Shown here one piece after another: positions 6,040 to 30,672 of a stretch of DNA of 64,000 bases; within the stretch, counting starts at the first letter, position 1, and every line of letters starts with the position of its first letter. The notes under the pieces were generated by a model, which saw only the letters and a list, made by a program, of their open reading frames with translations, did no database searches and was not told where the DNA came from. The DNA is from Prevotella jejuni. GTDB lineage: Bacteria; Bacteroidota; Bacteroidia; Bacteroidales; Bacteroidaceae. A program made the translations under genes and the position numbers. The stretch covers positions 1 through 64,000 of the forward strand of contig NZ_FZNZ01000009.1 in assembly GCF_900187995.1 (NCBI RefSeq), given 5' to 3'.

Positions 6040-6810
6040 ATGGATATAGCCAATCTGATTAATCACCCAGAAAATCTGAACAAGGAGACCTTATATGATC
6101 TCCGAAGTCTGCTTGCGCTTTATCCTTATTACCAACCAGCACGTATCCTACTATTACAGAATCTCTTCCTACTCCACGACCCGACCTTCGATGACGAGTT
6201 GAGACGTGCTGCTGTTTATATCTCTGATCGTCACATACTATTTAAGCTTGTAGAAGAAGCTCACTATCGGTTGATTCCACAACAGAAACAAGTAAAAAAG
6301 CAATCAGAGACTTCTACTGCTACACAGACAGCCAAAGAGGAACAGGATCGTACGACCTCACTGATAGACAATTTCCTGGAACAAATCCCAGAGGAGGCCG
6401 AAAGAGAACAAGAGACAGCTGGTGTACGTAAACCAACACCTGCCGATGCAACTGTAGACTACGTTGCTTATTTACTGGAAAGTGAGAGTAAACAGAAAGA
6501 AGAGGTCACCCCGCAGCTTAGAGGCCAAGAACTTATCGACGACTTCATCTTCAACGAAGGAGGTAAGATAACCTTACAAGAGGAAACAGAATACGAACCA
6601 GAAGAAAACAATCATAACGAAGCAGCCGAAAACGAAGATACTGGCTACTTCACCGAGACCTTAGCAAGAATATATATAAAACAAGGTAGATATTCCAAAG
6701 CATTGGAAATTATTAAGCGATTAAATTTGGTATATCCGAAAAAAAATCGTTACTTTGCAGACCAAATACGGTTTTTAGAGAAATTGATAATAAATAACAA
6801 TAAAAAATAA
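6040..6810 (+). CDS. TPR-like hypothetical protein of the lptE-secG cluster
   Basis: 256-residue cytoplasmic protein without signal peptide or membrane segment. The N-terminal ~80 residues are helical, with a YPYYQPARILLLQNLFLLHD segment. The middle is charged and Gln/Glu-rich. The C-terminus contains one clear TPR-like helix pair, YFTETLARIYIKQGRYSKAL about residue 205. I do not know its function. It starts 57 bp after lptE and ends 10 bp before secG, so co-expression with secG is very likely. Confidence 0.8.
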   Translation: MDIANLINHPENLNKETLYDLRSLLALYPYYQPARILLLQNLFLLHDPTFDDELRRAAVYISDRHILFKLVEEAHYRLIPQQKQVKKQSETSTATQTAKEEQDRTTSLIDNFLEQIPEEAEREQETAGVRKPTPADATVDYVAYLLESESKQKEEVTPQLRGQELIDDFIFNEGGKITLQEETEYEPEENNHNEAAENEDTGYFTETLARIYIKQGRYSKALEIIKRLNLVYPKKNRYFADQIRFLEKLIINNNKK

Positions 6811-6820
6811 GACAAGAAAA

Positions 6821-7204
6821 ATGTACACGTTATTAGTAATCCTTATCGTGATTGCAGCACTTTTGATGATTGGTGTCGTACTGATTCAAGAGTCAAAGGG
6901 CGGTGGTCTTTCTTCAAATTTCTCATCTTCTAATGCCATCATGGGCGTTCGCAAGACTACGGATTTCATCGAGAAGACTACATGGGGTTTAGCTATTGCT
7001 ATGGTAGTTATCAGTGTTGCCAGTGCATACGTGGCTCCAAGAGCAAGCACTGATGAGAGCGTAATAGAGAAAGCTGCAACGCAGGACAATACAACTAATC
7101 CTAATAACCTGCCTAACTTCGGCGCAAGCCAGCAGAAGCAGGCCGCACCAGCTGCTCAAGCTCCTGCTGCACCAGCTCAGGCACCAGCATCTCCAGCTAA
7201 ATAA
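6821..7204 (+). CDS. secG: preprotein translocase subunit SecG
   Basis: Small inner-membrane subunit of the SecYEG channel. Two hydrophobic helices (residues ~2-22 and ~55-75) flank the conserved loop IQESKGGGLSSNF. The 127-residue protein has a low-complexity Ala/Pro/Gln tail (PAAQAPAAPAQAPASPAK), a common and variable extension in Bacteroidota SecG. Confidence 0.95.
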   Translation: MYTLLVILIVIAALLMIGVVLIQESKGGGLSSNFSSSNAIMGVRKTTDFIEKTTWGLAIAMVVISVASAYVAPRASTDESVIEKAATQDNTTNPNNLPNFGASQQKQAAPAAQAPAAPAQAPASPAK

Positions 7205-11600: not shown

Positions 11601-13610
11601 GCCTCCTACCTCATCACCCGTGCGGGCAACGCAATGGTGCTGCAGGGTGCTGAATATATGGTTAAGGCCATGAAGACACTGGGTAAAGACCACCTGATGG
11701 CAAGCAGCTATGGCACAGAGAAGCGTGTAGTACTGACCGATATCATCGAACGTACCTTCCCACTCGACACAGACGAGCCTGAAAAACTCAAGTCAATCAA
11801 AGACGACAGACTCTTAGAATTAGCCTATTTTGCACCGCAGTGGGTTCCACTTATCAAAGCACATCTCAACTGGGAAGGCTTCGATCTTGCCTACTACTAC
11901 TTCATTGCGCATACAAAGGAGATGGGCGAAGACGAGAAGAGGGCTACAACAGCGCTCTTCACCGACCTCGACCCAGCTGATCTTGCCGATGGAGCCTTTG
12001 ACGAAAAACTCTTTCACGAAGCTTATACCGTGGTTGGAGAAAAGCGTTTCGAACTGTTCTACAAAGCAGCACGATACATCGGAAGCAGTAACTATCACAG
12101 TCGTGCGCGTCGCTTTGCTGACACGGCTCTCGGCAAGATAGATGAAGAAACCATCACAGAACAGATACATTCCAAGCGCAACAAGGATGCTGTTTGTTCA
12201 TTGGGACTACTCCCAGACAAAAGCGACAAAGCATTGCAACGCCGCTATCAGCTTATACAAGCCTTTCTGAAAGAGTCGAAGCAGTATGGTGCACAGCGTC
12301 AGGCGTCAGAGAAACGGGTATGTGAGATTGCCCTACTGAACCTCTCACGTGGTGCAGGCTATGCTGACCCAATGCAGCTGACGTGGCGCATGGAGAGTCA
12401 GCAGGTGACTGATAATGCTGCTTACTTGCAGGGAATCAATGTGGAAGGATACACACTGAGACTGCAGTTGGCCGAGGATGGCACCAATAAACTCATCATC
12501 CAACAAGGCGAGAAGGTATTGAAAACAGTACCAACAAAGATTAAGAAGCATCCCGACTACCTCAGTATTGCCGATATGGGCAGGGAATGGACGAAACAGA
12601 GAAAGCGTGCTCGCACAATGCTGGAGGACATGATGATACGACAGACACCATTACGTCCACAGGATGTAGAGGTGATTGCGCAAAATCCTATTGTCAGTCC
12701 GATGTTCCGATTACTGCTCCTTCGACAAGGGACAACCACAGGCTTCCTTACTGACAAAGGTTTGGAGACCCTCAATGGTGTACGTAAAGTGAAAACTAAT
12801 GAGCCTCTCACCATTACCCACGCGCAACAACTCTATGCCGACGGTACATGGTCAGCCTGGCAACACACCGTCTTCAATAAGAAGATAGTACAACCTTTCA
12901 AACAGATATTCCGTGAGATCTACATCCCTACACCTGCCGAAGCAGAACAGAGTGAGTCGCTCCGTTACAGCGGATACCAGATTCAAGTGAAGCAAGCCGC
13001 AGCCGCATTGCGTAGCCGTGGATGGAATGCTGACTACGAAGGAGGCCTCCGCAAGGTGTTCTATCGCCAAGGTATCTCGGTTGAACTCTATGCAAAAGCC
13101 AACTGGTTCACACCTGCCGATGTGGAGGCTCCAGCCATTGAGTATGTAAGCTTCTCATCTACACGTTCTGACAAGCAACTGAAGATTGCCGATATCGACC
13201 CTATTCTTTATAGCGAGGTGATGCGTGATGTGGATATGACAGTCAGCATAGCCTTCGTTGGTGGCGTCGACCCAGAGACAGGAAACTCAACGAAAGAACT
13301 CCGTGCAGCCATTGTCAAGTGTACTGCCGAGCTGATGAAATTCAACAATATAGCGGTTTCTGACAACTTCATCCACGTCAAAGGCACACTTGCTGACTAT
13401 ACTATCCACCTCGGTTCGGGCAATGTGCGACAGGTTGGTGGTGTAGAGATTCCTATCATCCCCGTACATGGTCAGCACCGTGGGAAACTCTATCTCCCCT
13501 TTATGGATGAAGACCCAAAGACCGTGGAGATTGTTTCCAAGATGGTACTCCTTGCAGAAGATAACAAGCTGAAAGACCCAACAATTTTGAAGTGGATTAA
13601 ACGGGAATAA
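8670..13610 (+). CDS. giant DUF5724/DUF4132-domain protein
   Basis: 1646-residue cytoplasmic protein, largely alpha-helical with HEAT-like stretches in the first ~1100 residues (DUF5724-like). A C-terminal DUF4132-type region includes SIADMGREWTKQRKRARTML, LRPQDVEVIAQNPIVSPMF and the ending PTILKWIKRE. DUF4132 proteins, such as E. coli YehI and MolR-like proteins, are usually found with a MoxR-type AAA ATPase, a VWA protein and SWIM-domain proteins. None of those partners is next to it here. Function is unknown. No signal peptide. A convergent hairpin repeat follows. Confidence 0.85.
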   Translation: MKTKQELQEHCKQYIENINLYKCNIWEEKLVKRCREDNYQFGNYLNIFYNPITEENFSFQTIEELLSSGANLPHILPKDFSELLEAHLRQLKDLSHTKGIYRIDVRGDLDLMEIASDISDIMRTFFATAAYGLTIDELIRGQYPDVTNYFFSFTPVLTAAIQQGKPETIEATKEVLTSENNIGILTKSLITAIESNNNEELHMLLLNVLRAAKLQEGLRQSIVECGNEYSLTFYKRLIGVIAEEGLLRYSSVRRSVQTWVGIGYETVTDKDIKTIFEGICLFLSHPKERAKAYTGPNALLVYVALYTAGAEDFNVAQHDAIQLINNDAPLQNRIAAIYYLDRSSHFKVTDHLEFFAKHLDDPFTKAFFIQQLSCTAREEKYEYGKVGRVSGKQRELFQQLFDEIAKWEKEVKNNTDFIFKGFEWFRIRLTRETFINALWVFACQLKTQETIDHILLEKIPNWSVSFTRYYRYGQDDERKEPLRAFMQDYYPLGSPEARRQYLTKNIFSYEKEGFEFLLTFFPKEDFTTTDIKEIEKKLKSKVSDTRNKAVRILLTLPYSLLKASYERLQTTNGDYIPAALTELREGNKQLAKDFAPTSVETSTVTPTSYPGPEGGYGLYKTGEIPTIKLSDPFLTKNDSQSFLGKVFNKITGKSHADASSVFTYTIDELRKLYTELEKIIVENADKEYKSRWGGTQILGDSYLSFTSDEQTLDTLPYPELWKSFLTDHPLKDEDLLGIYLMLIVFEGNYHTEIVDLNADNYPFKGLKNVESWKYDYHFKLIIATLLADLNRRNPALLFRQAYATLALIYFYCPTNKYIRISSYDSEKEGYIFNSHFFSIAMRYAESSWRTEEEFKLFAEMTLAMYEKYAPLARTDKSTYYSDYSIDALLLSRYNLQGHLSDDAFMELLLQDEGKQLQEAGNYIYNTRGHRLSLQYEDEKIFDARYGKETYENLRRVINKIAQHLFKIEMTRLNAPTTASYLITRAGNAMVLQGAEYMVKAMKTLGKDHLMASSYGTEKRVVLTDIIERTFPLDTDEPEKLKSIKDDRLLELAYFAPQWVPLIKAHLNWEGFDLAYYYFIAHTKEMGEDEKRATTALFTDLDPADLADGAFDEKLFHEAYTVVGEKRFELFYKAARYIGSSNYHSRARRFADTALGKIDEETITEQIHSKRNKDAVCSLGLLPDKSDKALQRRYQLIQAFLKESKQYGAQRQASEKRVCEIALLNLSRGAGYADPMQLTWRMESQQVTDNAAYLQGINVEGYTLRLQLAEDGTNKLIIQQGEKVLKTVPTKIKKHPDYLSIADMGREWTKQRKRARTMLEDMMIRQTPLRPQDVEVIAQNPIVSPMFRLLLLRQGTTTGFLTDKGLETLNGVRKVKTNEPLTITHAQQLYADGTWSAWQHTVFNKKIVQPFKQIFREIYIPTPAEAEQSESLRYSGYQIQVKQAAAALRSRGWNADYEGGLRKVFYRQGISVELYAKANWFTPADVEAPAIEYVSFSSTRSDKQLKIADIDPILYSEVMRDVDMTVSIAFVGGVDPETGNSTKELRAAIVKCTAELMKFNNIAVSDNFIHVKGTLADYTIHLGSGNVRQVGGVEIPIIPVHGQHRGKLYLPFMDEDPKTVEIVSKMVLLAEDNKLKDPTILKWIKRE

Positions 13611-22374: not shown

Positions 22375-22417
22375 TAAATTGATATGCACTGTATAATATC
22401 GGGGAGCGCTGAATAAC

Positions 22418-22610
22418 GCAAGTTCAACATAGAACTGCAATCCCAAGTGTTGGTGTAGCTTAATAATCTATACCTGAAAACATAGAGACCCTTGGGGCGA
22501 GAAGCCCCCATGAGAGGAAAATCAACAAGCAATGTATAAAAACAAGAAAGGGAGACCTCTGTCTCCCAAAGATTAATTAATTTTGCATTGCAATATACAA
22601 ACAATTAACC
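22418..22610 (+). repeat. solo IS30 5' end, copy 2
   Basis: Matches the IS30 5' region at 314-492 (opposite orientation) from CGCAAGTTCAACATAG through both hairpins to the first transposase codons, ATACAAACAATTAACC. It stops where the acyltransferase fragment begins. No transposase body follows. Confidence 0.8.
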
Positions 22611-23056
22611 ACAAATCTCATACCTATATTGTAAGGGATGCCTTTGAAAATATAGTTGGCTGCATCAGGAGTTTTCATTGGGATAAACACAAGACTCTTC
22701 CTATCGAAAAAATATATGGGATAAACCCACTAAATGCTATTCACCAGGAAAGTAAATATAATTTTTGGCATATCAGACGCTTTGCCGATGCAAAGGATTC
22801 GGGAATATCAACATTGACATTGTTCAAGCGATTAATGGCATTAGCAGTAAAGCCGATAGTTGAGGACAAGTACAGCTATATGATTGCAGAGATTGACAGC
22901 AAACTATTGAAAGTAATGAAGGTGTTGAGATTTGGTACAAGTCAAATCGGAAAATCCATCGACTACCTGACATCCGAGACCATTCCTGTATGTTTCAGCA
23001 AAAGAGGTATTATGGGTTTCTTTTCCAAGTATGGTGAACTTTGCAAGGCAGCATGA
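22583..23056 (+). pseudogene. 5'-truncated LuxI/FeeM-like GNAT acyltransferase (C-terminal part)
   Basis: The open frame starts inside the IS30 end (TTG 22583); gene-specific sequence begins about 22608 with HKSHTYIVRDAFENIVGCIR. Features of autoinducer-synthase/N-acyl-amino-acid-synthase-type acyltransferases are visible: FENIVGCIRSFHW, FWHIRRFADA, a helix TLFKRLMALAVKPIVED, then VMKVLRFGTSQIGKSIDYL and ETIPVCF. The first ~50 residues are missing. A separate 48-codon piece at 28226-28372 may be the N-terminal part of a sister gene. The stop codon abuts a TTACAC box. Family call is by pattern only. Confidence 0.6.
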
Positions 23057-23072
23057 TTACACTTTTGTGTAA
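23057..23072 (+). promoter_or_regulatory. LuxR-type box 1 (upstream of barrel gene 23360)
   Basis: Perfect 16-bp palindrome TTACACTTTTGTGTAA, directly after the acyltransferase stop codon. Its start lies exactly 39 bp before that of box 2. Confidence 0.75.
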
Positions 23073-23095
23073 TATTTCAGGCAACAAATTCAGAA

Positions 23096-23111
23096 TTACA
23101 CAAAAGTGTAA
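23096..23111 (+). promoter_or_regulatory. LuxR-type box 2 (upstream of barrel gene 23360)
   Basis: Perfect palindrome TTACACAAAAGTGTAA ending 22 bp before the -7 element TATATTTG at 23134-23141. The same 22-bp geometry occurs at 26452-26467 and 28152-28167. Confidence 0.8.
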
Positions 23112-23133
23112 CGATATAATTTGGAGATATAAA

Positions 23134-23359
23134 TATATTTGCAATAGAAATAATCAAGTCGACAAGATTATAAAAACAGACCAAACTGTATAAAGGAAAG
23201 CAATGCCTTAAGCTGTAAGACGGCATTCTGACCAGACAGAAAAGAAAAGGGGTAGATGTCGAAAAAACTACGAGTAGACAATTTAAAAATCGTTTTTTAA
23301 AACCAACAAGTAATATTGGACGTATAGAATGATAAATAAATTTTAATAGGATTAGTATT
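23134..23359 (+). promoter_or_regulatory. promoter and long 5' leader of barrel gene 23360
   Basis: TATATTTG at 23134-23141 implies a leader of about 210 nt before ATG 23360. The leader contains a possible stem AATGCC...GGCATT near 23202-23227 and a 14-codon reading frame beginning MSKKLRVDN. I cannot assign a function to either. Confidence 0.5.
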
Positions 23360-25666
23360 ATGAACGATAAAATAATATTTTCTTTGATTTGCTTTTCCCT
23401 TTGTAGTATGGGGCTACATGCTCAAAGAAAAATAGAAGGCAATGTGAAGGATTCTCAAACAGGTAAAAATATTGCTTTTGCAAATGTGACTTTGCAATTA
23501 CAGGCCGATACAACAAAGAACTATTCTGGCTCATTAACGGATTTAGAAGGAAATTTCTCTTTAGATAATGTTCCTACGAAATCTTATAGAATTGTCGTGT
23601 CTTATTTGGGGTATAAGACAATAAAAGAAAATATCGTTTTATCAGACTCCTCTCGTTTAAACAGAAATTATTCTTTACAACCATTAGCTGTAGAATTAAA
23701 GGAGACAGTAGTAACGGCAAATAGAAATATACAACATATCGATCATAGATCTATCACTTTTACCAGTGAGCAAATAAAGCATGCTCAGGTGGGTAGAGAC
23801 TTGGTCAAGGATATTCCAGAAATAAGAGAAGATGCCTTAACAGGAACTTTAAAGAATGTTGATGGAAAAGCTCCTTTTATCCTTATCAATAACATTCGTT
23901 CTTCTGAAGTGGATCTTAAAGCCCTAAAACCAAGTAATATAAAGTATATAGAATATTATGATATACCACCAGCGCGATATGCTACAGCTAGTTCTGTTAT
24001 AAATGTTATTACAAAAACATTAGAAAAAGGTTACAGCTTCGGACTAAAGACGAGGGATGCATTCAGCACAGGATTCTCAGATGATGGGGTCTACCTCTCT
24101 ATCACACAAGGTAAGAGTAAGTTTGATCTTTCTTACGATTTTAGCTTACGTGATTACAAGAATGTGGTAAATAGCCGTTCGTATGAATATACGAAGGGTG
24201 TGGATAATTATATCGATAAGTCTTCTGGAAAGGAAAAATTCGGGTATATTAATCAAGATATTAGTGTGAAATATGCTTATATCCCAAATATGAAATCTAT
24301 CTTCCAGATTTCCTTTGAGCCTAATATTCTCTGGGAACATAGTAAAAGTATCCAAAATGGTGTATATGGAGTGCTGGGACATAAAGACGGTATTATTCGT
24401 AATTCTCATGATAATATTCATACCTTTAATCCTTCTTTAGATCTCTACTTTGATAGGCAGTTTAATGATAAAAATAATTTATCTGTAAATATTAATGCAG
24501 CTACCTTTGGTACTCATAGCACTTCCTATGAAGATGAGAAAATTTCAAATGGAGCAGTGCCATATGTAGATGATATGAGGCTGAAGAATAGAAAGAATAG
24601 CATCATCGGTGAGATTGATTATTCGCATCGATTTGCAAATATTAAATTGAATACAGGTTACCGTACAGAATTTTCACATTCAAGATCCAACTTGAATAAT
24701 TTATCAGGTCAAGATGTATATTCCACCAACCAGTCACAACATTATCTTTATGCAGAATTAGTAGGGGGTAAAGGTAAACTTATGTATAAAGCAAATGTGG
24801 GAGTTACAACATTAAAAATTAATTCACCACTTGCGTCTCATTCAGAGATTATGTTTACCCCTAAGGCAGAATTAGGTTATAATGTGTCGAATAACACATC
24901 ACTGAGATTTGAATTTACTTCTAACCCAATTATTCCTTCTTTAAATATGCTTAGTAGTAATGTTACCATGCTAACAAGAGATATTTATAAGAAAGGTAAC
25001 CCTCATTTAAAGAATGGACAGGATACTAGAGTAACGCTTATGCTGAATCACTATAGTAAATATATAGACTTAATGATGAAGACAACATATTCCTATCAGT
25101 CAAAAGCTATTTATCAATATTTTTATACCGATAACAATGAACTGATATTAGGTTATAAAAATTGTAAGCATGTAAATAGCTATGGGGGATTCATTATGCT
25201 CCAGTATAAGCCATTTGGAAATTACTTGTTGTCTTTCTCTCTGGCTGGTGTACCTCAAATGGAGAATGTATACAATGAGGATGATGTTAATAAAATCTTC
25301 TCCGTAGACAATCTGTTCGACGTAGACTTTAATTATAAGAATTTCAATGCACATTATCATTTGGTAATCCCGGTATACACTGCCAACGGAAGCTTTAAAA
25401 GTAGTACTGAAAATAATAATGATTTTACAGCAAGCTATAGAGTAAATAATTGGAAATTCTCAGCATCAGTATTTTTTATTGGCAAAGATGCGAAATACAT
25501 TACAAAGACAAATTCTTCTTCTTTTGTAAACTATAACGAAGAGCGCAGAATAAAAGACAACCATTCGATGTTTGCAATAGGGATAGAGTATAATTTCAAT
25601 GCAGAGAAAAACAAATCATTTACCCGCAGGTTGAATAATAGAGATACAGATTCTCCAACATTCTAG
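23360..25666 (+). CDS. outer-membrane beta-barrel protein with CarboxypepD-like domain
   Basis: 768 residues. Signal peptide (LICFSLCSMGLHAQ), then a carboxypeptidase-regulatory-like beta-sandwich (RKIEGNVKDSQTGKNIAFAN...YRIVVSYLGYKTI) typical of SusC-type receptors. A plug follows (LKETVVTANRN...LVKDIPEIREDALTG...IEYYDIPPARYA) and then the barrel. No SusD neighbour. It stands behind two TTACAC boxes and is predicted to be activated by the LuxR-type regulator at 27277-28035. The plug resembles the barrel encoded at 13957-15999. Codon use is AT-rich relative to flanking housekeeping genes. Intact. Confidence 0.88.
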   Translation: MNDKIIFSLICFSLCSMGLHAQRKIEGNVKDSQTGKNIAFANVTLQLQADTTKNYSGSLTDLEGNFSLDNVPTKSYRIVVSYLGYKTIKENIVLSDSSRLNRNYSLQPLAVELKETVVTANRNIQHIDHRSITFTSEQIKHAQVGRDLVKDIPEIREDALTGTLKNVDGKAPFILINNIRSSEVDLKALKPSNIKYIEYYDIPPARYATASSVINVITKTLEKGYSFGLKTRDAFSTGFSDDGVYLSITQGKSKFDLSYDFSLRDYKNVVNSRSYEYTKGVDNYIDKSSGKEKFGYINQDISVKYAYIPNMKSIFQISFEPNILWEHSKSIQNGVYGVLGHKDGIIRNSHDNIHTFNPSLDLYFDRQFNDKNNLSVNINAATFGTHSTSYEDEKISNGAVPYVDDMRLKNRKNSIIGEIDYSHRFANIKLNTGYRTEFSHSRSNLNNLSGQDVYSTNQSQHYLYAELVGGKGKLMYKANVGVTTLKINSPLASHSEIMFTPKAELGYNVSNNTSLRFEFTSNPIIPSLNMLSSNVTMLTRDIYKKGNPHLKNGQDTRVTLMLNHYSKYIDLMMKTTYSYQSKAIYQYFYTDNNELILGYKNCKHVNSYGGFIMLQYKPFGNYLLSFSLAGVPQMENVYNEDDVNKIFSVDNLFDVDFNYKNFNAHYHLVIPVYTANGSFKSSTENNNDFTASYRVNNWKFSASVFFIGKDAKYITKTNSSSFVNYNEERRIKDNHSMFAIGIEYNFNAEKNKSFTRRLNNRDTDSPTF

Positions 25667-25728
25667 CTATTTAAAGAATGAAAAATAAATGCCTCAAAGA
25701 AGCTGATTGATAATAGAATTTAAGGCAT

Positions 25729-25816
25729 AATGGACATTTGGTAGACTGAAAACTCTCTCGGGTTCTAGTAATAGACATTTGGTAGACTGGAATGATCAGC
25801 CTACCAAATGTCCATT
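25729..25816. repeat. inverted repeat ahead of the IS982 remnant
   Basis: AATGGACATTTGGTAG (25729-25744) is matched by CTACCAAATGTCCATT (25801-25816), with a third partial copy, GACATTTGGTAGACTGG, at 25774-25790. This probably reflects collapsed ends of an IS element. Confidence 0.6.
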
Positions 25817-26060
25817 ACGCCGAAAGCATGAAAGGAGCTTTAATGAGTGTTTCAGACAGGCTTTTACTCAGAAAAAGAGCCATTATAGAAACTATGAATG
25901 ATGAACTTAAGAACATTGTGCAAGTGGAATACTCCAAACATAGATGCTTAAAAAATCATCGTCAACTTATTCGGGGCAATTGCTGCCCATAATCTGTTCC
26001 CAAAGAAGCCGTGCATCAATGTGCAAAGGACCATTGACACACAGCTTACATTTTTCTGAA
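25801..26060 (+). pseudogene. IS982-like transposase C-terminal remnant
   Basis: Encodes MKGALMSVSDRLLLRKRAI and ETMNDELKNIVQVEYSKHR. After a frameshift the usual C-terminal segment follows: AIAAHNLFPKKPCINVQRT...IDTQLTFF, stop near 26060. The N-terminal two thirds are absent. The family name is from recall of this conserved C-terminus. Confidence 0.7.
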
Positions 26061-26095
26061 TTCGTCGAACTCACGTTAAAATAAACAAGTAGATT

Positions 26096-26385
26096 ATGGA
26101 ACTGATAAGAGATTTGAATATGGAAGCGGACGATATACAAGTGGTGCTGTCCGTTATCAGTAGTGTAAGCAAGAGAATTAAGGAAGTACACAGACACACA
26201 AGCCACTCTTCGGAGATAAGCATTTCCTGACAGGCAAGGAAGTGTGCGAGCGGCTGTATATCAGACCCCGTACCCTGCAGGACTATAGGGAAAGGAAGAT
26301 TATCCCCTACACGCAGTTTGCAGGGAAGATACTCTATAAGGCTTCGGATTTGGAAAGGTTGTTGGAGGATAACTATAAGGAGTAG
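26096..26385 (+). pseudogene. frameshifted excisionase-type HTH gene, copy B
   Basis: First frame MELIRDLNMEADDIQVVLSV...RIKEVHRHT. After a -1 shift comes KPLFGDKHFLTGKEVCERLY, then RTLQDYRERKIIPYTQFAGK and ERLLEDNYKE. This is a helix-turn-helix protein of the kind found in Bacteroides mobile elements. The shift is at the same GACACACAAGCC site as in copy A (18259-18547), so it preceded their duplication, or both derive from a split gene. Confidence 0.75.
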
Positions 26386-26451
26386 CAACACAAACATGTT
26401 ATCTTCTGAATATGTTATAAAATCTAAAATAATCAACAATGTGATTGATTA

Positions 26452-26467
26452 TTACACTTTTGTGTAG
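26452..26467 (+). promoter_or_regulatory. LuxR-type box 3 (upstream of the ThiF-like gene)
   Basis: TTACACTTTTGTGTAG, one mismatch from the perfect palindrome, ends 22 bp before the -7 element TACTTTTG at 26490-26497. No convincing second box is seen 39 bp upstream. Confidence 0.75.
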
Positions 26468-26517
26468 AGTATATATGCTTTATTACATCTACTTTTGCCT
26501 AAAATAACTATTTCGTT

Positions 26518-27267
26518 ATGGAAGAAAGATACAGCAAAAACAGGCTCTATGTGAGCGAAAGAGAACAAAGCGTCATCAAGGAATATAAGATATTCCTTGG
26601 TGGTGCAGGTATTGGCAGTATTATCTCAGAATGCGCTTTAAGATTTGGTTTTGAACATATCACCATCGTTGATGGCGACATGGTGGAGGAAAGCAACCTT
26701 AATAGGCAGAATTATACAGAGAATGACATTGGCAGATACAAGGCGGAATGTTTGGCTGAGCGTTTGCAAAGTATCAATCCTGATGCACAGATAGATTTCC
26801 ATACAGAGTTTTTGACTCCTGATAACATCGAAGAGATGCTGAATGAGCACGATGTAGCCATCAATGCATTGGACTTTAAGGATAAAACTCCATTCGTCTT
26901 TGATGAAATATGCAAAGAAAGAAAAATCCCTATACTGCACCCATACAACTTTGGTTGGGCTGGATTTGTTACGATTGTAGACCCATTGGGGCATTCTTTA
27001 TCGGAACTGACTGAAGAACCAAAGGGATTTGAATTAAAGGTGGCAGAGTATGTTACCGGACACGGGGCTTTTTGGAATCAACCTAAAGAATGGTTAGACA
27101 AAATTGTAACCCAATATAAAAAAGAAAGCGAAATGCTACCGCCTCCACAACTATCCATAGCATCATGGATTGCAGCAGGCTTGTGTACAACGGCAATGTA
27201 CAATCTTGCTACAGGAAAACCTGTGAACTATTTTCCTAAATTCTATCTCTCTTCGCTTTTGCCGTAA
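26518..27267 (+). CDS. ThiF/E1-like adenylyltransferase
   Basis: 249-residue cytoplasmic enzyme of the ThiF/MoeB/E1 superfamily, which adenylates a carboxyl terminus of a carrier protein or peptide. A Rossmann start FLGGAGIGSIISE (about residue 26) is followed by ITIVDGDMVEESNLNRQNY with the canonical Asp and Arg, DIGRYKAECLAERL with the conserved Lys, and HDVAINALDFKD. It lacks the paired CxxC zinc motifs of MoeB/ThiF and has no rhodanese domain or obvious ThiS/MoaD partner nearby. It has its own TTACAC-box promoter and faces the LuxR-type gene tail to tail. Confidence 0.85.
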   Translation: MEERYSKNRLYVSEREQSVIKEYKIFLGGAGIGSIISECALRFGFEHITIVDGDMVEESNLNRQNYTENDIGRYKAECLAERLQSINPDAQIDFHTEFLTPDNIEEMLNEHDVAINALDFKDKTPFVFDEICKERKIPILHPYNFGWAGFVTIVDPLGHSLSELTEEPKGFELKVAEYVTGHGAFWNQPKEWLDKIVTQYKKESEMLPPPQLSIASWIAAGLCTTAMYNLATGKPVNYFPKFYLSSLLP

Positions 27268-27276
27268 GTTATTTTT

Positions 27277-28035
27277 TCAGAAGAGTTTGTTTAAGGTAGC
27301 TCTTGAAATAGCTTCAGTGATATTCGTCACGCCTAATTTGTCAAAGGCGTGGCGTTTATAGGTTTTGATAGAATCTAACGAGCGGCACATTCTGTTCGCA
27401 ATTTCCGTCATGGTAAGCCCTGCTGCTGACAACCGTAGCACTTCAAGTTCTTCTTCTTTGAGTGATATTCCATCACATTCTTTCCACCGATGTTCTTCGA
27501 AAGAATATTTCCAATAGTTAAGATTACCCTTTTTGTGAAACTCTACATGTCCCACTGTTTTATGTGAAGATAGTGATACGACACACATACCAATCCATAT
27601 CTTGCCTTCATCTGTCAATAGAATGGGAGTAAGCTGGTGATTAATCAACTTACTTTTTGTTGTTTTACTCTTCAGATGAAAATGATATGACATGGAACAT
27701 TGGTATTTATCAACATTGTCGAAAGTATCAAAGAACTTAAACCCACTGCTGTTTAACTCAACAAGCATTTTTTGTTCTTCCTCTGATACATGCTCCAAGT
27801 AAAAGCTGTAGCCTAATTCCTTCACTTCCTTTGCCGTATGTCCACAAAGAAACAAAGGGTTGTCCGACACATAAAGAAATTCCTGCCTGTAATAGTCTAT
27901 CAAGTAAACACTCTGATAGGTAACACGAGCAAAAGCCTCTACGGTTTGCACTAATGTAGAGAGTACATTGGAATCATAGTCAGGTGCGTTGCGCACGGTG
28001 TTCGATGCTATAAAGAAATCTTTTATGTCTGTCAT
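27277..28035 (-). CDS. LuxR-family transcriptional regulator with PAS-like sensor
   Basis: 252 residues from ATG 28035 (MTDIKDFFIASNTV); a start at 28107 would place coding sequence over its promoter. Residues ~30-180 resemble a PAS fold (VYLIDYYRQEFLYVSDNPLF, GHTAKEVKELGYSFYLEHV), suggesting ligand sensing. The C-terminus is a GerE/LuxR helix-turn-helix: LKEEELEVLRLSAAGLTMTE, IANRMCRSLDSIKTYKRHAF, DKLGVTNITEAI. A dyad-symmetric target such as the TTACAC-N4-GTGTAA boxes around it suits this family. A minus-strand -7 (28083-28076) and box 4 suggest autoregulation. Confidence 0.88.
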   Translation of the reverse strand: MTDIKDFFIASNTVRNAPDYDSNVLSTLVQTVEAFARVTYQSVYLIDYYRQEFLYVSDNPLFLCGHTAKEVKELGYSFYLEHVSEEEQKMLVELNSSGFKFFDTFDNVDKYQCSMSYHFHLKSKTTKSKLINHQLTPILLTDEGKIWIGMCVVSLSSHKTVGHVEFHKKGNLNYWKYSFEEHRWKECDGISLKEEELEVLRLSAAGLTMTEIANRMCRSLDSIKTYKRHAFDKLGVTNITEAISRATLNKLF

Positions 28036-28075
28036 ATATGCTAAACATGTTAAGGTTCTCTGATATATTTCACTA

Positions 28076-28083
28076 CAAAAGTA
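28076..28083 (-). promoter_or_regulatory. -7 element of the LuxR-type gene
   Basis: Read on the minus strand it is TACTTTTG. Box 4 (28113-28128) lies 29 bp upstream of it, a different spacing from the three rightward promoters. Confidence 0.55.
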
Positions 28084-28112
28084 CATTTTTAATGCGGAAT
28101 ACCGCAAACAGA

Positions 28113-28128
28113 TTACACAAAAGTGTAA
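28113..28128 (+). promoter_or_regulatory. LuxR-type box 4 (divergent region)
   Basis: Perfect palindrome TTACACAAAAGTGTAA between the divergent LuxR-type gene and the barrel operon. Its start is 39 bp before that of box 5, the same spacing as boxes 1 and 2. Confidence 0.8.
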
Positions 28129-28151
28129 AAAACAAAGAGAGAGATGCCAAA

Positions 28152-28167
28152 TTACACAAAAGTGTAA
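28152..28167 (+). promoter_or_regulatory. LuxR-type box 5 with -7 element
   Basis: Perfect palindrome TTACACAAAAGTGTAA ending 22 bp before TATTTTTG (28190-28197), which precedes the start of the short acyltransferase-like gene piece by 28 bp. Confidence 0.8.
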
Positions 28168-28225
28168 TAGGTGATATTTGGATAAGAAGTATTTTTGCCA
28201 TATAAATCAAGAAACAAAAAGCATT

Positions 28226-28372
28226 ATGGAAAAACAGATTGCAACATTTAAGGACTACGCTATCTTCATGGCGGACAAAACGAATCTGTTGGAAATAGCA
28301 CAGTTTGTGGTCAAGGAAAATTACTCCCATAACTTATTTTCATTTACAGAAATTTTATCAACAGAATTATGA
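28226..28372 (+). pseudogene. 48-residue N-terminal piece of an acyltransferase-like gene
   Basis: MEKQIATFKDYAIFMADKTN, then LLEIAQFVVKENYSHNLFSF, ending STEL. It looks like the first ~45 residues of a GNAT/autoinducer-synthase-like protein, the part missing from the fragment at 22583-23056. The stop overlaps the ATG of the next barrel gene (ATGA, 4-nt overlap), so it could still serve as a translated leader. Family call is tentative. Confidence 0.5.
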
Positions 28373-30447
28373 AACACTATCTAAATAAATGTTTTATACC
28401 CTGTCTATTGATGTTTTGCTCAACGGGGTTAGCGCAAGAAACAAAGCACCTTGATGAAGTTGTTGTTATAGCATCTCGGACAGTTAATAAAACAGACGGA
28501 TACATAACCAATCTCAAAGGAATGAACATTGTTAAAGCTAAACCTGCTGCCTCTATACTCTCTTTCCTTCCAAACATTTCATTTGAAGAAGGCAAATTCA
28601 AGATAAATGGACTATCTGTTAGTGAAATATATGTAGATGGTGTAAAACTGTCTGACACTTCTGAACTTAACAAGATACCAGGGGAAAGGATTGATAAGGT
28701 TGAAGTAAAATACCTTGCTGGTGCAGAAAATAATGCAGCGTTGAGTGGAGGAAGCATTATAATAACTTTACGCCGTCCTGAAAATGGAGGCTTCTATGGT
28801 AGTATTATGGGGAACTCCGAGTGGTTTCGATCTTGTGGCTTTGGAAATGAGGATGTAGGATTACTTTTTAATGCCCGCTATAAGAATCTTAGTCTATATG
28901 ATAATATGGATTTCGGACATAAGAAGATAAAGGAAACTGCAGAGCAATGGCAGGCAGAACAAGATATACAATCATTAATGTCTAATAGTTTGGTTTCCTG
29001 TTCTGTTAATTTCAGGAATCGAATCAGCCTTACGCAAGAATTCAAATCTGGAGTTCAGATAGGCGGAAGCTATCTTTATGCCTCTTCAAACCCGTCTCCA
29101 ACAACTAAAACGTTTGCAAACAACGAATGGACTTCAATTAGCGAGGTAACGAATATTCATCTGCATGAAGGAACCATCAAGTTCTTCATGCCATTAAATA
29201 AAAGAGGAAGTTCTATAGAAGTAACCACCGACTATTTGAATAGACATAGTAACAATAATTCGCTATATTATATTGAAGAGGAAAACACTAACAATATTAC
29301 GGAACAGAATCAGCTCAACTTATGGAAGTTTAAGGCTGATATTTTGTATCCATGTAATCGTTCACTTGTATTTAAATTTGGAACATCTGCCCAATTATTA
29401 TCTTCACAGTATAGTCCTTCTGGGAATAATATAAGTAATCGTTTTAATACGAGTACAAAGACTACGAAAACCTCCGGTGTGACTCCAATTGTTTATGCTG
29501 TAGCACAAGGAAAAATTAGTAAATTCCGATATAGTGCAGGTTTGAACTGGCAACTCAATCATATCGGTTTTAGCGATTTGACCAGCAATATTCATGAACA
29601 TAACAATCAATGGAGTTTCAATCCTATTATTCAGATAATGATGCCATTTGGAAAAAGGAAAGAACACAGTTTGATGCTTAACTACAAACGAACGATGAGT
29701 GACATTCCCTACTCTGCAATATCTTCAGCTATCACGTGGAAAGATGCATACAACTATAGTGTAGGTAATGCAAATCTGAAGGCACCGTCGTCTGATATGC
29801 TAATGGTCGGTCTTTCTATGTTTAGAAACAAGGTGACGCTTACTGCTATTTATGCTTACTCGCATAACCGTATCTATTGGCAAACCTTTAATGATGAAAT
29901 AAATTCTAATATCCTTTATACAAAACCCATTAATATTTCAGGACAATCTTATTGGGGAATGGGAGCTGAATATATGGAAGCTCCGACTAAATGGTGGAAC
30001 TTTAAATTCTCAGGACGTGTAGAGATAACCCCTGAAAATTTACAAATAGGTACGACCTTTTATAACAAGACCCGTTTCAAAGAATACTTCTCTTTTAACA
30101 ATAACTTTGAATTTACAAATGGATGGGGAGGTATGCTAAATGCAAGCATTGAACCAAAATACCAAACACTTGAAAGAACTTATCATACAGTATATAGTGT
30201 TAATGGGAGAATTTATAAATCATTCTTAAATGATAATCTTCAGTTTGCTATTGACTTTACTCCTCTTGCCAATAGACGTAAACTTGATAGACAAATAGGA
30301 ACAAGCAAAATTACCTATCAAAATACCTCTTCAACTCAGTATGTTGGACTGTCTATTACTTGGAATTTTTCTAAAGGTAAAAAAGTAAAAGTAAATTCTG
30401 TAGATGGGATACAAGAATATCATCAGACAAAAGATAACTGGGAATGA
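28369..30447 (+). CDS. TonB-receptor-like outer-membrane beta-barrel protein (LuxR-box regulated)
   Basis: 692 residues. Signal peptide (FIPCLLMFCSTGLAQ), then the pre-plug motif HLDEVVVIASRTVNKTDGYI. The plug includes ILSFLPNISFEEGKFKING and RIDKVEVKYLAGAENNAALS, and a barrel follows. No carboxypeptidase-like domain and no SusD. It is translationally coupled to the 48-codon piece and driven by the promoter with boxes 4 and 5. Predicted outer-membrane uptake or release channel for whatever compound the locus handles. Intact. Confidence 0.87.
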   Translation: MKHYLNKCFIPCLLMFCSTGLAQETKHLDEVVVIASRTVNKTDGYITNLKGMNIVKAKPAASILSFLPNISFEEGKFKINGLSVSEIYVDGVKLSDTSELNKIPGERIDKVEVKYLAGAENNAALSGGSIIITLRRPENGGFYGSIMGNSEWFRSCGFGNEDVGLLFNARYKNLSLYDNMDFGHKKIKETAEQWQAEQDIQSLMSNSLVSCSVNFRNRISLTQEFKSGVQIGGSYLYASSNPSPTTKTFANNEWTSISEVTNIHLHEGTIKFFMPLNKRGSSIEVTTDYLNRHSNNNSLYYIEEENTNNITEQNQLNLWKFKADILYPCNRSLVFKFGTSAQLLSSQYSPSGNNISNRFNTSTKTTKTSGVTPIVYAVAQGKISKFRYSAGLNWQLNHIGFSDLTSNIHEHNNQWSFNPIIQIMMPFGKRKEHSLMLNYKRTMSDIPYSAISSAITWKDAYNYSVGNANLKAPSSDMLMVGLSMFRNKVTLTAIYAYSHNRIYWQTFNDEINSNILYTKPINISGQSYWGMGAEYMEAPTKWWNFKFSGRVEITPENLQIGTTFYNKTRFKEYFSFNNNFEFTNGWGGMLNASIEPKYQTLERTYHTVYSVNGRIYKSFLNDNLQFAIDFTPLANRRKLDRQIGTSKITYQNTSSTQYVGLSITWNFSKGKKVKVNSVDGIQEYHQTKDNWE

Positions 30448-30481: not shown

Positions 30482-30672
30482 CCGCAAGTTCAACATAGAA
30501 CTGCAATCCCAAGTGCTGGTGTAGCTTAATAATCTATACCTGAAAACACAGAGGTATTTGGGGACGAGAAGCCCCCATGAGAGGAAAATCAACAAGCAAT
30601 GTATAAAAATAAGAAAGGGAAACCTCTGTCTCCCAAAGATTAATTAATTCCGCATTGCAATGTACAAACAAA
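30482..30672 (+). repeat. solo IS30 5' end, copy 3
   Basis: Matches copies 1 and 2 from CCGCAAGTTCAACATAG to the transposase start ATGTACAAACAA, then diverges at once. Both hairpins are present, the second degraded (TTGGGGACGAGAAGCCCCCA). Confidence 0.8.

Follow-up and report, generated by a model that had tools for sequence, protein, structure and literature searches.

Quorum sensing in Bacteroidota has long been obscure. One sentence of a 2026 review (PMC13419125) credits Linares-Otoya et al. (Nature 2025) with N-acyl-cyclolysines (ACLs) in Bacteroidota, widespread in gut and oral microbiomes, and the Protein Data Bank (PDB) entry 9EGB, released 2025-08-13, is titled 'AclA from Tenacibaculum discolor in complex with substrate'. 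Related chemistry is described for the OxzAB, TyzABC and TrzAS clusters, in which a ThiF-type enzyme cyclises N-acyl tyrosine, phenylalanine or tryptophan (PMC10404671, PMC12856293, PMC12479983). We analysed here a stretch of 64 kb of Prevotella jejuni DNA (the window, on contig C46 of a 3.65 Mb draft genome in 92 contigs), where a ThiF/E1-like gene, a divergent LuxR-type regulator, a FeeM-like acyltransferase and two outer-membrane protein genes lie at 22-31 kb. This locus is very probably a copy of the ACL signalling system of Bacteroidota that has been rearranged and whose synthase is defective. An initial annotation had found the E1-like gene, the regulator, the acyltransferase fragment, the two outer-membrane proteins and a shared regulatory box, all of which are present, and had proposed the synthesis and sensing of an acylated amino-acid compound, which is now well supported; it had also considered the composition undescribed, but the trio of enzymes and regulator matches the AclA/N-acyl-cyclolysine system.

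The E1-like gene of the window links the locus to this system. It is a ThiF (PF00899, E = 8e-36) and, as had been annotated, has no carrier-protein partner at the locus. The profile of its family matches the AclA structures 9EGB, 9EGC and 9EGD at 3.6e-111, and the model of the ThiF from an intact paralogous locus on contig C36 of the same genome aligns with 9EGB at a template modelling (TM) score of 0.95 and 58% identity. AclA of T. discolor is itself 94% identical to the ThiF of T. gallaicum (L126), which belongs to a ThiF-LuxR-acyltransferase trio upstream of a nonribosomal peptide synthetase (NRPS). By sequence and structure, the ThiF enzymes of the window and C36 loci are orthologous to AclA; from this orthology and from the neighbourhood we infer that the whole trio is an ACL system. 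A more distant relative was seen on a plasmid of Vibrio sp. THAF191d (L155 5995-6741), where a lone ThiF, 35% identical to the AclA type, has neither FeeM nor LuxR nearby and is adjoined upstream by a 388-aa open reading frame (ORF).

The features of the window locus are the following (coordinates, strand, description; palindromic boxes are given without strand).

22417..22604, forward: interspersed repeat of 184 bp, abutting the C-terminal acyltransferase piece (self-BLAST)
22604..23053, forward: FeeM-like acyltransferase, C-terminal piece, codons about 60-209, upstream part missing (PF21926)
23057..23072: box TTACACTTTTGTGTAA, immediately after the FeeM stop
23096..23111: box TTACACAAAAGTGTAA, 39 bp from the box at 23057, -7 element TATATTTG 22 bp on
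23360..25666, forward: outer-membrane protein with CarboxypepD_reg-like N-terminus, cargo (Pfam)
26091..26377, forward: remnant, small gene of HTH_17 type, matching the 6634-6919 region of L031
26452..26467: box TTACACTTTTGTGTAG, -7 element TACTTTTG 22 bp on
26518..27267, forward: AclA-type ThiF/E1-like enzyme, 249 aa, intact
27277..28035, reverse: LuxR-type regulator (GerE), ATG start at 28035 from the alignment, listed TTG start at 28107 upstream
28113..28128: box TTACACAAAAGTGTAA, between the LuxR gene and the N-terminal acyltransferase piece
28152..28167: box TTACACAAAAGTGTAA, 39 bp from the box at 28113, -7 element TATTTTTG 22 bp on
28226..28372, forward: FeeM-like acyltransferase, N-terminal piece in a 48-aa ORF, homologous over codons 1-43 (28226-28354), stop overlapping the next start (ATGA)
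28369..30447, forward: outer-membrane beta-barrel OMP_b-brl_3 occupying the acyltransferase position, cargo (PF14905, E = 9.8e-50)
30483..30671, forward: second copy of the 184-bp repeat (self-BLAST)

The acyltransferase of the window is thus not intact: it lies in two pieces, which are 91% (codons 1-43) and 86% (codons 60-209) identical to the intact C36 protein, with about 17-20 codons missing between them. The fragment previously described as LuxI/FeeM-like, ORF 22583-23053, is indeed of FeeM type by its relatives and by fold, but the second piece had been missed, and the first 7 or so codons of this ORF derive from the 184-bp repeat, not from FeeM. The fragment gives only a weak match to PF21926 (FeeM; E = 6.5e-4, under the Pfam cut-off), while this family is matched by 12 of 12 intact relatives, the C36 protein scoring just under the cut-off; Autoind_synth (PF00765) gave no significant match among the 12 acyltransferases, one of them reaching E = 0.026. 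A sequence search of the PDB with the acyltransferase returned no relevant match, and a fold search was therefore used. The AlphaFold model of the intact C36 protein (predicted local distance difference test, pLDDT, 91) has FeeM, 2G0B, as its best PDB match, followed by TofI, with BjaI and LasI also among the top matches. Judged from the modelled fold of this relative, the fragment is a FeeM/LuxI-type GNAT. Such FeeM-type acyltransferases are sparse: they were found in 11 of 150 genomes sampled from the genus, 10 of 301 from the family and 2 of 295 from the order. The PEP-CTERM context of exosortase-associated acyltransferases was not seen around the locus.

The regulator carries a GerE/LuxR helix-turn-helix (HTH; E = 3.8e-10 in Pfam), and its profile aligns with the sensor region and HTH of the solved regulator 3CLO (E = 3e-15). 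The initial annotation called it a PAS-LuxR protein: the LuxR part stands, while Pfam supports the PAS part weakly, PAS_3 reaching E = 0.04 in a single relative out of 15.

The association of the three families extends well beyond this genome. Searched with the ThiF profile, named genomes yielded 224 relatives; 80 were kept, from Prevotella, Segatella, Hoylesella, Bacteroides fragilis, Parabacteroides, Tannerella, Chryseobacterium, Tenacibaculum, Flavobacterium and Sphingobacteriales, and 71 had enough flanking DNA to be tested. Among these 71 loci, a LuxR gene lies within 3 kb of ThiF in 64 and an acyltransferase within 4.5 kb in 55, and 52 have the strict order ThiF(+)-LuxR(-)-FeeM(+). The co-occurrence of E1-like, GNAT and LuxR families, on which the proposal of a common function depended, is therefore the usual state at the Bacteroidota loci. 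The order is the same in the C36 and T. gallaicum loci. In Prevotella loci a small HTH_17 gene is frequent upstream of ThiF, and the window has a remnant of it. A divergent relative (L061 8388-10685) has ThiF and the acyltransferase in one run, a divergent LuxR and other neighbour genes, a possible further subtype. We also noticed MT836930 (L156 1-8252), an 8-kb contig filed as bacteriophage; it is probably bacterial DNA, because it is an unverified contig with the LuxR, FeeM, radical S-adenosylmethionine (SAM), outer-membrane and ATP-binding cassette (ABC) genes of an ACL locus.

The shared box is the palindrome TTACACNNNNGTGTAA (TTACAC-N4-GTGTAA). It has five copies in the window, of which four are exact (23057, 23096, 28113, 28152) and one, at 26452, deviates by a single mismatch; at up to two mismatches the window contains 10 matches where 2.7 are expected (0 of 100 shuffles). 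With at most one mismatch to TTACACAAAAGTGTAA there are 12 sites in the whole genome, all at C36, C46 and C86, that is, only at three loci of this kind, the one on C86 being a third and more decayed copy; the reversed control pattern has no site in the whole genome. In intact loci, a box pair 39 bp apart precedes the acyltransferase (at -105 and -66), one box lies at about -58 of ThiF, and a second pair stands at +9 and +48, immediately behind the stop of the acyltransferase. In 37 of 42 promoter-proximal sites the Bacteroidota -7 element TANNTTTG lies exactly 22 bp downstream of the box, and in one more 21 bp downstream, compared to 2.8% for this motif anywhere in random 50-mers, and all three box promoters of the window keep the exact 22-bp register. 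This spacing places the centre of the box near -42, which is where LuxR-type activators bind. A palindromic putative regulator site is thus present near -42 of the synthase promoter, and the box is predicted to be an activator site, as expected of such a position. Its variants differ between clades within the same architecture, CTACAC-N4-GTGTAG in Chryseobacterium and TTACCC-N4-GGGTAA in some clades. The variation of K and R in the LuxR recognition helix relative to these variants was suggestive, not clean, and was not used. After the post-acyltransferase box pair, about 130 nt of the window (23112-23240) are 91-94% identical between loci with different cargo; they might be a regulatory 5' leader.

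These elements would fit together as follows. In intact copies, including that of C36, the FeeM-like acyltransferase would join a fatty acyl to the alpha-amine of lysine, and AclA would adenylate the carboxylate of lysine, allowing its side-chain amine to close a caprolactam ring. The two reactions, acylation and ATP-dependent closure by AclA, could occur in either order, and the product would be an acylated caprolactam resembling an acyl-homoserine lactone. N-acylation by FeeM-like enzymes together with ATP-dependent closure by ThiF-type enzymes is the simplest route from these families. The divergent LuxR-type protein would bind the product and activate, through boxes some 42 bp before the start point, the promoters of the acyltransferase, of AclA and of the downstream cargo. 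The box layout predicts positive feedback on the acyltransferase and AclA, together with induction of the cargo, which is mostly ribosomal-peptide or outer-membrane genes. In the window, a rearrangement associated with the repeats has split the acyltransferase, leaving AclA and LuxR intact and both outer-membrane genes behind complete box promoters. The 184-bp repeat is possibly a small mobile element; it has 20 copies genome-wide, several of them at contig ends, and the locus is also flanked by insertion sequence (IS) remnants.

What lies behind the boxes is exchangeable. Among loci whose ThiF is 92-98% identical, the outer-membrane proteins share no more than 20-33% identity, apart from one pair at 97%. 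The cargo of Prevotella and B. fragilis loci includes peptides with double-glycine (GG) leaders, radical SAM enzymes and ABC transporters with a C39 peptidase. The initial annotation gave the two outer-membrane proteins a part in the passage of the signal. This part is not supported, since the barrels diverge while ThiF stays nearly identical and their neighbours are peptide and export genes; the barrels are better read as swappable regulated cargo, outside the signal core. Their description as two barrels holds for the 28369 gene, while for the 23360 gene the Pfam match lies chiefly in a CarboxypepD_reg-like N-terminus. In Prevotella amnii (L078), a gene next to ThiF has 95% DNA identity with the 23360 gene, and the 28369 barrel has a close relative in L035 (0.012 nonsynonymous substitutions per site, dN, and 0.051 synonymous, dS).

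Several cargo arrangements deserve mention. On C36 (L004), ThiF, LuxR, the 209-aa acyltransferase and the box pair are followed by a 57-aa double-glycine-leader peptide (11990-12160), a PapB-like radical SAM enzyme, an outer-membrane protein and a C39 ABC transporter. This is an uncharacterised cluster for a ribosomally synthesised and post-translationally modified peptide (RiPP) behind an ACL box pair. In Chryseobacterium culicis (L116 13848-17361), five tandem near-identical 59-aa GG-leader peptides and then two LanC-like proteins come right after the trio and an outer-membrane protein. In T. gallaicum (L126 11450-18744), the trio is followed by a NusG-like gene, a phosphopantetheinyl transferase (PPTase) and the NRPS, which means that the cargo is not limited to ribosomally made peptides.

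The loss of the synthase is not peculiar to the window. In the window, the acyltransferase promoter precedes a 48-aa remnant which overlaps the barrel start, and the promoter behind the acyltransferase points towards the 23360 gene. L075, L079 (identical to L037) and L038 have similar remnants, of about 40-66 codons, in front of an outer-membrane gene, and in L076, L081, L097 and L122 a barrel directly follows the box pair with no remnant between. On the ThiF tree, the presence of the acyltransferase changes at least 13 times, 7 of which are forced by well-supported branches (support being by the Shimodaira-Hasegawa-like approximate likelihood ratio test, SH-aLRT, only, and the 'absent' class including truncated and frameshifted genes). 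For ThiF and LuxR, dN/dS is 0.04-0.18 in all pairs with unsaturated dS, including the pairs L076/L081 and L076/L079 in which both loci are synthase-less, and 0.07-0.18 for the window genes. This recurrent loss of FeeM under purifying selection on AclA and LuxR suggests satellite or receiver-only loci, and its recurrence is possibly new. In 15 genomes with synthase-less loci, a long match to the acyltransferase exists elsewhere in 4, fragments only in 3 and none in 8, absence being weak evidence in draft assemblies; the pattern fits satellites within signalling strains, perhaps listeners. We propose tentatively that synthase-less ACL loci are a functional class and that some of them listen to the signal of neighbours; the retention of AclA in such loci suggests that it processes or re-closes an acquired N-acyl-lysine or ring-opened signal. 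A Riemerella anatipestifer record (L154 8998-11481), filed as a plasmid but carrying mnmG, aroQ and ybeY, holds another such locus, its ThiF and LuxR genes lacking an acyltransferase next to them.

Two other functions could be imagined for the pair of enzymes. An acyl-oxazolone or N-acyl amino acid, as in the OxzAB, TyzABC and TrzAS clusters, was our first candidate, given that the same two enzyme families occur there, and was dropped after the AclA match. We now hold it improbable: the ThiF here is the orthologue of AclA, and those clusters carry a fused or adjacent nitroreductase-type oxidase, of which none is found among the genes annotated beside the trio, although a nitroreductase model was not run against all loci. 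Still less probable is that the acyltransferase and ThiF tailor the peptide cargo, by N-acylation and MccB-like C-terminal activation, with LuxR as a local regulator. The C36 ThiF model does resemble MccB and PaaA in fold, and GG-leader peptides with maturases are frequent at these loci; against this, the trio remains near-identical beside unrelated cargo, occurs beside an NRPS or beside an outer-membrane gene without any peptide, and both enzymes have box promoters of their own. We dropped this role as the trio is constant while the cargo changes.

A different matter, compatible with the ACL identity of the family, is whether the copy in the window is dead, a pseudo-locus that no longer has any role. 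This has an appreciable but minor chance of being right, as the acyltransferase is split and lacks codons, the locus is flanked by repeats and IS remnants, and dN/dS averages over the time before the break, so that a recent death could leave the ratio low. But ThiF, LuxR and both barrels are intact, as are the five boxes, the ratios are low, three promoters are in exact register, and loci with a barrel for the acyltransferase recur in other strains. Most likely, then, the window copy is a satellite answering a signal from C36 or from neighbours, because AclA and LuxR are intact beside the split acyltransferase and the barrels stand behind complete box promoters. Some points weigh against the ACL reading as a whole. 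The match depends on the title of the AclA structure and the review sentence cited above; the head group or acyl chain of the Prevotella product could differ; many Bacteroidales loci are without a clear 6-4-6 box; and the arrangement of the window, lying between copies of a 20-copy repeat in a draft assembly, may be a misassembly. Beside the direct observations (gene content and order, box, promoter register, folds, AclA orthology and split gene), we infer the signal chemistry in Prevotella, the binding of LuxR to box and ligand, and the satellite role.

The operator as defined from sequence, two boxes at a distance of 39 bp with the -7 element 22 bp further on, makes the regulon of each ACL system readable from genomes. 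The analysis also connects the system with an exchangeable cargo of RiPP, NRPS and outer-membrane genes in species of the mouth and gut. If synthase-less loci are listeners, eavesdropping on the ACL signal becomes directly testable.

Compared to known systems, the locus is closest to the AclA system, found in the same phylum, with a ThiF of the AclA type and the same trio as around the T. gallaicum gene; the window copy differs by its split acyltransferase with an outer-membrane gene in its place. FeeM is the best fold match of the C36 acyltransferase, but at an identity of only about 16%, and both this protein and the window fragment score under the cut-off of the family. The OxzAB, TyzABC and TrzAS clusters likewise combine an N-acyl amino acid synthase with a ThiF-type cyclase; they carry in addition a flavin oxidase for desaturation, and their cyclisation gives an oxazolone. 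With the LuxI/LuxR systems of acyl-homoserine lactones, the locus shares a GNAT-fold acyl synthase, a divergent LuxR-type regulator, a palindrome near -42 and an autoinduction layout, but here the cyclase is a separate ThiF, the synthase is of the FeeM family, the sensor domain is another one and the promoters have the Bacteroidota -7 element.

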